DNA of 64,000 nt from Halomonas sp. GTDB taxonomy: Bacteria; Pseudomonadota; Gammaproteobacteria; Pseudomonadales; Halomonadaceae. Below the pieces are notes generated by a model. The model searched no databases. It worked only from the letters and a program-made list of their open reading frames with translations, and was not told the origin of the DNA. The position numbers and the translations under genes were made by a program. Shown here piece by piece: positions 29,482-49,432 of this stretch (position 1 is its first letter; each line of letters begins with the position of its first letter). The DNA is taken from contig NZ_JAJUFQ010000004.1 in assembly GCF_029263665.1 (NCBI RefSeq), positions 1 to 64,000 of the forward strand. The letters are read 5' to 3'.

Positions 29482-29634
29482 CCCATACCTCTATCCTGAC
29501 GCGATGTCTCTGGTGACGATACTTTCAAAAGGCATGCTTGAAGGACGCGCTTGCGCTGGGCCCACTATTGAAGCACCGCATTTTTGAAGAGTGTGCACCC
29601 CCTCCTTATACGGCGCACCCACAGACTGCATGCC

Positions 29635-29695
29635 CTCATACTGCAAAATCCTATTCTGCAAAAATCATGCTGCAGATGAGTTCTGCGCAAAATGG
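29635..29695. repeat. ~15-bp x 4 degenerate tandem repeat at the kdsB 3' end
   Basis: CTCATACTGCAAAAT/CCTATTCTGCAAAAAT/CATGCTGCAGATGAG/TTCTGCGCAAAATGG. Confidence 0.55.
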
Positions 29696-30441
29696 CGTCG
29701 CACGCGCTCCAGGTCTTCCATGGTATCCACCCCAGCCGGAGGCGCTGTCTCCGCCAGCGCCACCTGAATCTCGTGCCCATAGTACAGAGCACGTAGCTGC
29801 TCGAGTTGCTCGAGTTGCTCGAGCGCCGCCGGGGCCCACTCGCTGAATGCACGCAGGAAGCTGGCACGATAGGCGTAGAGCCCGATATGGCGCAACCAGG
29901 CATCGGTTTCCAGCAACGCTGGCTTTTCACGAAAGCCTTCCCTGTCCCAGGGCATCGGTGCGCGAGAAAAGGTCAGAGCGCGGCCGGATGCCGCCCGCAC
30001 CACCTTGACCACATTAGGATTGAACAGCGTGTCTACATCTGTGATGGGCTCGGCCAGTGTTGCCACCGATGCGCCTTCATCCTGCATCAGACGCTCAGCC
30101 ACCTGATTGATCAGCACTGGCGGCAACAGTGGTTCGTCGCCCTGAACATTCACCAGCACAGCGTCATCAGCCAACTCCAGGCGAGCGGCCACTTCGGCCA
30201 GACGATCAGTCCCCGTGGGATGATCCGGACTGGTCAGAAGCACCTCTGCTCCCAGCTCGGCTACCGCATCACGAATGCGCTCGTCATCGGTGGCCACCAC
30301 GACTCGACTGGCGGCAGACTGACATGCCTGATCCCACACGCGAGCTACCATGGGACGCCCGGCAATGTCCGCCAACGGCTTGGCCGGCAGGCGGCTGGAT
30401 CCATAACGCGCGGGAATGACAGCAATGAATTCCTGCATCAC
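29665..30441 (-). CDS. kdsB: 3-deoxy-manno-octulosonate cytidylyltransferase
   Basis: [39 protein letters not shown]. Confidence 0.97.
29797..29823. repeat. In-frame 9-bp x 3 repeat in kdsB
   Basis: gctcgagttgctcgagttgctcgag encodes LEQ LEQ LEQ. Confidence 0.9.
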
Positions 30442-44416: not shown

Positions 44417-47152
44417 TCAGTTCAGCTTGCCGCAGCACTGCTTGTACTTCTTGCCAGAACCGCAGGGACAAGGATCATTACGCCCGACCTTAGGCGCTTC
44501 TCGACGCACCGGGCGCGCTTCGTCTTCGCCCTCGAAGCCCTCTTCTTCCGCTCCCTCGGCCACTGTGGCAAGGGCTGCTTCAGGATGACGGTTGTCAGCC
44601 TTGGCTGATTCCCGTGCCAGTGCCTCACGACGTTGTTGTTCCAGGGCATCGACCTCTTCCGGAGCACGCACCTGCACATGACTGAGGATGCGCGTCACGT
44701 CGGCCTTGATATTCACCAGCAGATTCTGGAACAGCTCAAAGGACTCGCGCTTGTATTCCTGCTTGGGGTTCTTCTGCGCATAGCCACGCAAGTGAATGCC
44801 ACGGCGCAGCAGATCCATGGACTGCAGGTGTTCTTTCCAGCGAGTATCCAGCACCTGCAACATGACTTGCTTCTCAAAGCGACGCATCAGCTCTCCGCCA
44901 GCCGTCGCCACCTTGTTCTCATAGGCTTCGCGGTGCAGCTTCTGAAGACGTTCGCGCAGCTCTTCCTCATGGAATCGCTCGTCGCTTTCAGCCCACTCCA
45001 CCACGGGTACCTCAAGGTTGAATTCGCTCTTGAGATGAGCTTCCAATCCAGGTAAATCCCATTGCTCAGGCAAGCTCTGTGGCGGCACAAAGGCACTGAC
45101 AGCCTCATCCAGCACTTCAGCACGAATACCGGTCACATTCTCGGATACATCCTCGGCTGCGAGAATCTCGTTACGTTGCTCGTAGATCACATGACGCTGG
45201 TCGTTGGCCACATCGTCATATTCCAGCAACTGCTTACGGATATCGAAGTTGCGACCTTCGACTTTCTTCTGTGCCCGCTCCACGGCATTGGATACCATCT
45301 TATGCTCGATGGCCTCGCCGCGCTCCAGCCCCAACGCCTGCATCAAGCGCTGTACCCGCTCGGAGCCGAACAAGCGCATCAGATTGTCTTCCAGGGACAG
45401 GAAGAAACGCGTGGAGCCCGGGTCACCCTGACGGCCAGAACGTCCCCGCAGCTGGTTGTCGATACGACGGGATTCGTGGCGCTCGGAGCCAATCACATGC
45501 AAGCCACCGGCATCCAGCACTGCCTGGTGACGCTCGGCCCAGGCACTCTTGAGGTCTTCGATCTGTTCATCGGAAGGCGACTCAAGCTTGGCGGCCTCTG
45601 CCTCCCAGTTCCCCCCCAGCATGATGTCCGTACCACGCCCGGCCATGTTGGTCGCAATGGTGACCGCTCCAGGACGACCGGCCTGAGCGATGATTTCGGC
45701 TTCTCGCTGGTGCTGCTTGGCATTCAGCACGTTGAAGTTGATGCCTGCCTTGCGCATCATCTCGGCCAGGTACTCGGAGGTCTCGATGGATGCAGTACCG
45801 ACCAGTACCGGGCGCCCGGCCTCGACCTGTACCTTGACGTCCTCGATGATGGCCTCGAACTTCTCCTCGGTGCTGAGGTAGACGAGGTCGTTCATATCCT
45901 TACGCGCGATCGGTCTGTTGGTCGGAATGACCACCACGTCCAGGCCATAGATCTGGCGGAATTCGAAGGCCTCGGTATCCGCGGTACCTGTCATGCCCGA
46001 GAGCTTGTCATAAAGACGGAAATAGTTCTGGAAGGTTGTCGAAGCCAGGGTCTGGCTCTCGCGCTGGACAGTGACCCCCTCCTTCGCTTCGATAGCCTGA
46101 TGCAACCCCTCAGACCAACGGCGGCCCGGCATGGTACGACCAGTATGCTCGTCAACGATGACAACCTGGCCGTTGCTGACAATGTAATCCACATCTTTGT
46201 GGTACAAGTGGCGTGCACGCAGAGCCGAGTTCATATGCTGCAACAGGTTAAGGTTCTGGGCGGCATACAGGGAGTCGTTTTCTGTCAGCAAGCCCTGCGC
46301 CTGCAGCATCTCTTCGACCCGATGATGGCCTATCTCCGTCAGTTCCACCTGCTTCTGTTTCTCGTCGAGGATGAAGTCGCCCGTCTCCGGGTCCTCTTCA
46401 TCCGCACAACGTGTCAGTTGAATGGCCAGGCGATCCACGACCTTGTACAGCTCAGTGTTCTCATCCACCGCTCCGGAAATGATCAGCGGAGTGCGGGCTT
46501 CATCGATGAGAATGGAATCCACTTCGTCAACAATGGCAAAATTCAGGCCGCGCTGCACCTTATCGTCCAGCGAGAACGCCATGTTGTCGCGCAGGTAGTC
46601 GAAGCCGAATTCGTTGTTGGTTCCATAGGTAATGTCGCAGCCATAGGCCTGGCGTTTCTCTTCCGACGTCTGGCCGGCAAAGATGACACCCACGCTGAGC
46701 CCGAGGAATTCATACAAGGGCTTCATCCAGCCAGCATCACGGCGGGCCAGATAATCGTTCACAGTGACGACATGCACCCCATTGCCAGGCAAGGCGTTCA
46801 GATACACCGCCAAGGTTGCCACCAGGGTCTTGCCCTCACCGGTCTTCATCTCGGCGATGCGACCGCGGTTGAGTGTCATGCCGCCGATCATCTGGACATC
46901 GAAGTGGCGCATGCCCATGATGCGCTTGCTTGCTTCACGCACCGTAGCGAAGGCCTCGGGCAGCAGTGACTCCAGGCTCTCACCATCCGCCAGACGCTGA
47001 CGGAATTCATCGGTACGAGCTTGCAGTGCTGCATCGTCCAGGGCCTCCAGGCTGGGCTCCAGACTATTGATCGCACGCACCTGGCGGGTCATGCGTTTCA
47101 CTTCACGGTCATTCTTGGAACCGACGACTTTACGTAGCAACGAGTTGATCAT
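44417..47152 (-). CDS. secA: Preprotein translocase subunit SecA
   Basis: [42 protein letters not shown]-terminal zinc motif [21 protein letters not shown]. Confidence 0.99.
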
Positions 47153-47244
47153 AAAAGGTCCATAAACGAGTCCTGCGTCAGTGGCAGAGACCCTATAGTG
47201 CGTAGGAAATAGTGGCGATACAGTTCATTGATGACGCATACAGA

Positions 47245-47592
47245 TCAGGCCAGCAAAGGCGGGCCTCGCCGGGAAACGACATCAAGCGCAGCCACAAGGC
47301 GCACCCATGGTTCGGATCTTGGAGAACTGACGATCTCTCGATCATGAAGTCTTCGTGTCCAGAGTGGAGACGAGAAGAAACGGCGACGAGCATTAAGTAC
47401 ACTGCGCGCACGAATCATGGCGGGAGCCATGATGCAGATCTGGACCAGCCGATCGCTGAATGGAGTCCCCTGAGACTGGGCCAACCCCGCCGGCAGCAGA
47501 CAGCCGACCAGCAGCCCAGCCAGCCACAAGCGTGTCATGGCACGCCGGGTACTGGTATCAGCACTGCTGGAAGGTGGGGCAACAACGGCCAT
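47245..47592 (-). CDS. Hypothetical 115-aa secretory-type small protein upstream of secA; candidate SecM-like arrest peptide
   Basis: ATG preceded by AAGGAG (12-nt spacing); hydrophobic segment LWLAGLLVGCLLPAGLA; C-terminus ...FFSSPLWTRRLHDREIVSSPRSEPWVRLVAALDVVSRRGPPLLA*; same strand as secA, 92 nt upstream. Confidence 0.55.
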   Translation of the reverse strand: MAVVAPPSSSADTSTRRAMTRLWLAGLLVGCLLPAGLAQSQGTPFSDRLVQICIMAPAMIRARSVLNARRRFFSSPLWTRRLHDREIVSSPRSEPWVRLVAALDVVSRRGPPLLA

Positions 47593-47696
47593 ACGGTCAA
47601 GCAACTCCTTGGCATGCTAGACTCAGGCAACAAGCCAGAGTACAGGCAGCAACGACTGGTATAAATCCCGGGTCTTTCACCCCGAGAAAGAGGCAT

Positions 47697-48152
47697 ATGA
47701 GTATAAAGGTTAAGCGGTTCCGCGCCCAGCCCATGTCCCGCCTCCTGAACAGAGGCGAATTAGGTAGTCTGATGCATATGGCACGCCTGCTGGAAAAGGC
47801 GCAGAACCACCTACGTCAGCACCTTACCCATGATCTGGCCGAGCACCTGTTCGTTGGTGGCTACCGCAATGGCCGTTTGACCCTGATAACCGATGGTGCC
47901 GCCTGGCTGACACGATTACGCTACGAGCAACCGCGCCTGCTGTCACTCCTCCATCAACTGCCTGAGTTTGCCGCCGTCACCGGCTTCCAGCTCAAGGTGA
48001 GACCTGTCAGGCCTGCCAAGGCACCTCTCCGCCAGACCCGCCGCCTTCCTGCCCAGGCCGGCAAGGAAATTGCCACCTGCGCCGAAGACACTGACGATCC
48101 CAAGCTGAAGCAAGCACTGCAACGCCTGGCCTCCCATGCCGAGCACGAGTAG
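47697..48152 (+). CDS. dciA: DciA/DUF721 family protein
   Basis: MSIKVKRFRAQPMSRLLNRGELGSLMHMARLLEKAQNHLRQHLTHDLAEHLFVGGYRNGRLTLITDGAAWLTRLRYEQPRLL. Confidence 0.85.
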   Translation: MSIKVKRFRAQPMSRLLNRGELGSLMHMARLLEKAQNHLRQHLTHDLAEHLFVGGYRNGRLTLITDGAAWLTRLRYEQPRLLSLLHQLPEFAAVTGFQLKVRPVRPAKAPLRQTRRLPAQAGKEIATCAEDTDDPKLKQALQRLASHAEHE

Positions 48153-48520: not shown

Positions 48521-49432
48521 TCAGGCCATGGCAGGAGCCGCATAGGAGATCGGCGCCGGCTGGGACTCATCTTCGAAGGTGACAATTTCCCAAGCCTCAG
48601 GTTGTTCCAGCAGAGCACGGCACAGCATGTTGTTTAATGCATGGCCAGACTTCACACCACGGAATTCGCCAATAAGGCTATATCCCAACTGATAGAGGTC
48701 ACCAATAGCATCCAGCACCTTGTGCTTGACGAACTCGTCGTCATAACGCAGACCACCTTCGTTCACGATACGGTAGTCATCGACCACGATGGCATTGTCG
48801 AGACTGCCGCCCAGCGCCAGATTGTTGGAGCGCAGGTACTCCAGGTCGCGCATGAAACCAAAGGTGCGAGCCCGAGACACTTCCTTGACGAAGGAAGTAG
48901 TGGAAAAGTCGACCACTGCAGTCTGCTTCTGATCCTCGAATACCGGATGATCGAAGTCGATGGCAAAAGAGACCTTGAAGCCCTGATGGGGCAAGAACAG
49001 AGCTTCCTTGTCATCTTCACGCACCACAATCTCACGCTTGATGCGGATGAACTTCTTCGGGGCATTCTGCTCGGCAATACCGGCAGACTGGATAAGGAAC
49101 ACGAAGGGGCCAGCGCTGCCATCCATGATCGGCACTTCGGGAGCACTGAGATCGACATAACAGTTGTCGATACCAAGGCCAGCAAACGCTGACATCAGGT
49201 GTTCCACAGTAGCTACCTTCTCACCGTCCTTCGACAACGCTGTACACAGCGTCGTATCGGTGACATTGGTTGCCTGGGCCGGAATGTGGACTTCCGGATC
49301 CAGGTCAGTGCGTACGAACACGATACCAGTATCGGCCGGCGCCGGGCGCAAGGTGAGATACACCTTCTTTCCGGAGTGCAGGCCCACGCCAGTAGCGCGA
49401 ATGACATTCTTTAGAGTGCGTTGTCTGATCAT
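48521..49432 (-). CDS. lpxC: UDP-3-O-acyl-N-acetylglucosamine deacetylase
   Basis: [80 protein letters not shown]. Confidence 0.98.

Follow-up and report, generated by a model that had tools for sequence, protein, structure and literature searches.

What is encoded in the short interval directly in front of secA in Halomonas, and does it act on secA itself? In the window analysed here, a 64,000-nucleotide stretch of a Halomonas sp. contig (NZ_JAJUFQ010000004.1, positions 1 to 64,000), secA (44417..47152, minus strand; Pfam SecA domains, best E 8.5e-132) is preceded by a small ORF on the same strand (uORF, 47245..47592), for which the initial annotation had suggested the role of a SecA-linked arrest peptide. 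Translation of 47245-47592 gives 115 residues and a stop, identical to the protein quoted there; the AAGGAG ribosome-binding site (47605..47610, minus strand), 12 nt 5′ of the ATG, and the gap of 92 nt between the uORF stop and the secA start were likewise reproduced from the sequence. In relatives this gap ranges from 25 to 146 nt, and GGAG or GGGAG occupies the equivalent place before the conserved uORF ATG in most of them. The intergenic leader of the window (47153..47244, minus strand), delineated from sequence and folding predictions, carries a Shine-Dalgarno-like GGA for secA (47161-47159). No Rfam leader RNA was found, and its one weak terminator-like site (47188-47172) occurs at chance rate; nor did a consensus search reveal a sigma-70 promoter in the dciA-uORF gap. 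The uORF is unique among the 277 ORFs of 60-250 aa in the window: no other has both a strongly hydrophobic segment at its N-terminus and R[AG]PP close to its C-terminus. A 102-aa ORF at 29538-29846 (plus strand), devoid of a hydrophobic N-terminus, is probably a chance ORF.

We consider it very probable that the uORF encodes a self-arresting leader peptide that monitors Sec export and controls secA; the stalling is ascribed to it by analogy with published peptides, and we infer export-dependent release and secA induction in this organism. A point of comparison for such a gene is E. coli SecM, likewise a short protein with an export signal, encoded just upstream of secA and bearing an arrest motif near its C-terminus. 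Even the spacing between the end of the signal (about residue 38) and the arrest site (Pro111), about 73 aa, is close to the median of 71 in the short SecM class. The gene order, lpxC (48521-49432, minus strand; Pfam), dciA (plus), uORF (minus) and secA (minus), also resembles lpxC-secM-secA, except for the inverted dciA insert. The claim that this is the same locus is thus correct as regards the position of the uORF directly before secA, but not as regards lpxC, which is separated from the uORF by the divergent dciA (DUF721; 47697..48152, plus strand; PF05258, E 3.5e-10), a neighbour outside the system. At the level of sequence the two proteins part ways. Neither the uORF protein nor, at E≤1, the rest of the genome matched the SecM profile PF06558, which did recover the E. 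coli control, and SecM homology was rejected. The arrest motif FxxxxWIxxxxGIRAGP is absent from the uORF protein, which has DV[LV][ST]RRGPP instead, that is, RGPP in place of RAGP, and the FSSPLW stretch initially read as a SecM-like element is not conserved in relatives. What has held up is the broader proposal of an arrest peptide linked to SecA but without sequence homology to SecM, supported by a signal core and an RGPP/RAPP motif kept throughout the family, purifying selection, adjacency to secA and the in vitro stalling published for an R109GPP uORF that precedes secA in a member of the same order.

Judging by hydropathy and the predicted helix, the protein appears to possess an N-terminal signal or transmembrane segment. 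The putative export signal spans residues 12-38 (47479..47559, minus strand), forms a helix over the same residues in the AlphaFold2 model and reaches a Kyte-Doolittle peak of 2.14 at residues 24-38. Its core, WWLAGLLV[GS]CLLPxGL, is near-invariant in 98 homologues, and Cys31 (47500-47502) in the middle of the core (LVGCLLP) is conserved in essentially all copies. A second conserved block, R..Q.CI.AP..IRA, falls within a predicted helix at residues 45-74 (47371..47460, minus strand), with the conservation noted near residues 48-61. These two features, the lipobox-like LVGC or LVSC in 95 of the 98 copies (LVTC and LFGC also occur) and the conserved, presumably helical block, are what might be expected of a small secreted protein, or a lipoprotein, that has a job of its own in the periplasm and, once mature, would use RGPP for binding and not for arrest. 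We regard this as unlikely. A lipobox, [LVI][ASTVI][GAS]C, would be expected where the hydrophobic core ends, but here hydrophobic residues continue past the cysteine (LLPxGL), and residues 75-100, between the second block and the arrest block, vary in both sequence and length. Apart from the signal helix and the helix at 45-74, AlphaFold2 predicts no compact fold (pTM 0.36), and no convincing family match was found for the protein in Pfam, NCBIfam or PHROG. Moreover, in the loci read from relatives, the gene sits directly before secA. For a Sec-monitoring leader peptide the second block can be given another role: placed some 50-60 residues N-terminal to the stall, it would lie outside the exit tunnel when the chain is arrested, and it is perhaps needed for engagement of the translocon or SecA.

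The putative arrest block near the C-terminus is D104-V-V-S-R-R-G-P-P112 (47257..47283, minus strand), which contains the R109GPP codons (47268-47257). The motif is RGPP at 91 and RAPP at one of 92 nonredundant loci; with extra genera included, the 98 nonredundant copies comprise 96 with RGPP and two with RAPP, both sets having been limited to ORFs near secA that end in R[AG]PP, so that copies lacking the motif would escape. Nevertheless, of the 147 loci retrieved purely by similarity, 146 satisfied this filter before redundancy was removed. Within the motif, the arginine and both prolines are found at all 92 loci and the glycine at 91. It is preceded by an almost invariant D-V-L-[ST]-R, represented in the window by D-V-V-S-R, with Asp at position -5 relative to the motif (92/92), Val at -4 (90/92) and Arg at -1 (87/92). 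In several lineages (L068, L155, L171) PRAPP replaces RRGPP, and in two of them (L155 and L171) the DVL block is lost, the sequences suggesting that RAPP and RGPP cores interchange. Conservation ends with the motif: the tail that follows is variable and 2-16 aa long, which refutes the idea that RGPP lies at a constant distance from the stop. At one locus (L202, genome G258) a premature TAG one residue past RGPP shortens the tail and leaves the motif intact. Since the uORF of this genome terminates there, nothing 3′ of the motif seems to be needed.

In every RQH peptide mapped by toeprinting, the stalled ribosome holds the third residue of the motif in its P site (PMC10987492), and by analogy Pro111 (47262-47260) would be the P-site codon here. 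Could such a stall report on something other than export, such as proline or EF-P status, and use that signal to set secA translation? Pro-Pro is indeed a general pausing sequence, yet RAPP and RGPP arrests are reported to be refractory to EF-P (PMC12992588), and a conserved export signal some 70 residues before the stall is what an export sensor would require. We therefore judge a non-Sec signal to be quite improbable.

All this presupposes that the uORF is translated as a gene, and its distribution and substitution pattern leave little room for another view. A six-frame search recovered a homologue in all 36 other genomes of the same genus and in none of the 21 other families of the order. 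A profile of the uORF family matched 235 of 250 Halomonadaceae genomes and nominally 21 of 24 genera. One genus (g26) counts through a single marginal match (E 0.006), in a genome whose secA is preceded by an M23 gene, so a more cautious tally is 234 genomes and 20 genera. A search of 295 genomes spread over the order, which we take to be Pseudomonadales in the GTDB sense, gave clear matches in Halomonadaceae alone, three others lying near E 1e-3. The relatives possessing the uORF include Halomonas, Billgrantia, Chromohalobacter and Modicisalibacter, among others, the closest being Halomonas cupida. Elsewhere in the order, an M23 peptidase gene precedes secA in many families (e.g., at L167, L174 and L184 among the outgroup loci), and the same was seen in the loci read from g26 and from g24, genera with a marginal match or no uORF. 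The arrest-peptide gene and the M23 gene, found at the same place before secA, thus represent an apparent gene replacement. Pairwise substitutions between close copies gave a pooled pN/pS of 0.29 in frame as opposed to 1.28 and 1.81 when the frame is shifted. The uORF is a real gene under purifying selection. The prediction of conservation and low dN/dS among relatives was thereby borne out, signal core and RGPP/RAPP included. High-GC DNA does yield many long spurious ORFs, but the notion of a chance ORF or transcribed spacer, conserved for the sake of a promoter or RNA structure, has a negligible chance of being right, being refuted by the substitution pattern and by the listed homologues, which have no in-frame stop before the motif and a single TAG just after RGPP.

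How does this family relate to arrest peptides already described? Fujiwara et al. (2024) searched 30,175 genomes for proteins built in this way and described, under the name RQH, a family with RAPP-like motifs (PMC10987492). One of its members, uA_RQH_Pseudomonadales, located upstream of secA and tested as R109GPP, arrests the ribosomes of both E. coli and B. subtilis, the arrest fraction exceeding 0.9 (PMC10987492). The similarity to the window protein is extensive: both are small, are encoded before secA in some of the Pseudomonadales, and have an N-terminal signal and a C-terminal RGPP, with the motif arginine at residue 109. The latter is found in eight of 98 family members, the window protein and seven others. 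The features by which RQH peptides are recognized in sequence are present as well: a small uORF of a sec gene without annotated function, a conserved RAPP-like C-terminus and a spacing of over 30 aa from the signal to the arrest site (about 73 aa). Since the 295 genomes of that order gave clear uORF matches in no other family, uA_RQH_Pseudomonadales probably corresponds to the Halomonadaceae family; in other words, our family is probably already inside the published group. Other relatives by motif are more distant. Alteromonas uDF_RQH_Enterobacterales (R125GPP) shares the RGPP core but regulates secDF2 rather than secA. In the published Alteromonas case, stalling at RGPP unmasks the Shine-Dalgarno sequence of secDF2, and expression rises 5.6-fold. 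ApdA of Actinobacteriota and ApdP of Alphaproteobacteria, whose structures explain the chemistry of the RAPP-type stall (PMC10951233), have in common with the uORF the RAPP-type core and, as expected from it, the stall chemistry; they differ in target gene, lineage and N-terminal sequence.

According to folding predictions, the mean unpaired probability of the secA Shine-Dalgarno sequence is 0.34 in native sequences versus 0.43 in synonymous recodings, a small effect that depends on energy models. The difference persists with the sequences grouped into 28 clusters at 70% identity as units (P 5e-4) and when the motif codons alone are recoded (P 7e-5, 28 clusters). These calculations suggest that the secA Shine-Dalgarno sequence is likely masked by mRNA pairing, although the window taken alone gives no clear picture. 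Where the masking strand resides is a separate matter. In most relatives, GTC-CTG, which encodes V-L within the arrest block, shows complementarity to the secA Shine-Dalgarno sequence (CAGGAC or TGGAC), as does CAT-GA of the H-D codons to the secA start region TCATG. This raises the possibility of dual coding: D-V-L-T-R-RGPP would stall the ribosome, GTC-CTG and CAT-GA would serve as an anti-Shine-Dalgarno and anti-start sequence hiding secA, and the stalled ribosome would sit on the masking strand. We offer this scheme tentatively and consider it rather doubtful as a whole. The preference for GTC at the valine codon (71% versus 29% raw) fades upon thinning (P 0.02 with 42 clusters and 0.21 with 33), and the proposed helix displays almost no compensatory changes or covariation, as both of its sides are nearly invariant. 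For the window, the partner of the Shine-Dalgarno sequence is predicted to lie further upstream and not in the D-V-V codons. For these reasons we regard it as a hypothesis that the anti-Shine-Dalgarno sequence lies specifically within the arrest codons. The predicted gain in accessibility of the secA Shine-Dalgarno sequence in the stalled state is in part trivial, because a shorter RNA has fewer partners. Two other features of these leaders were observed in many species, among them relatives such as L004, L009 and L020: a further ATG (ATGCCACACGCA...) that lies upstream and shares the reading frame of secA, and a GC-rich hairpin directly past the uORF stop.

The way a Sec-monitoring leader peptide of this kind might operate can be outlined as follows. 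The ribosome would translate the export signal, then about 70 residues, and then R109-G-P-P, whereupon peptide bond formation would stall, Pro111 occupying the P site and Pro112-tRNA the A site. When Sec export is working, SecA and SecYEG would engage the signal and pull the nascent chain, releasing the stall. When export is weak, the stall would last, and the parked ribosome would disturb the pairing around the secA ribosome-binding site, leading to more SecA.

The switch type itself is already known; what our analysis adds is the detail of its conservation and, on weaker grounds, the dual-code hypothesis. About 100 aligned natural variants show which residues are held fixed around the RGPP core. 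The family is also in keeping with the idea of repeated origins of RAPP-like arrest peptides in front of sec genes. For Halomonadaceae, which include Halomonas and relatives used in biotechnology, the uORF would provide, by analogy with the published peptides, a defined candidate for a SecA feedback switch.
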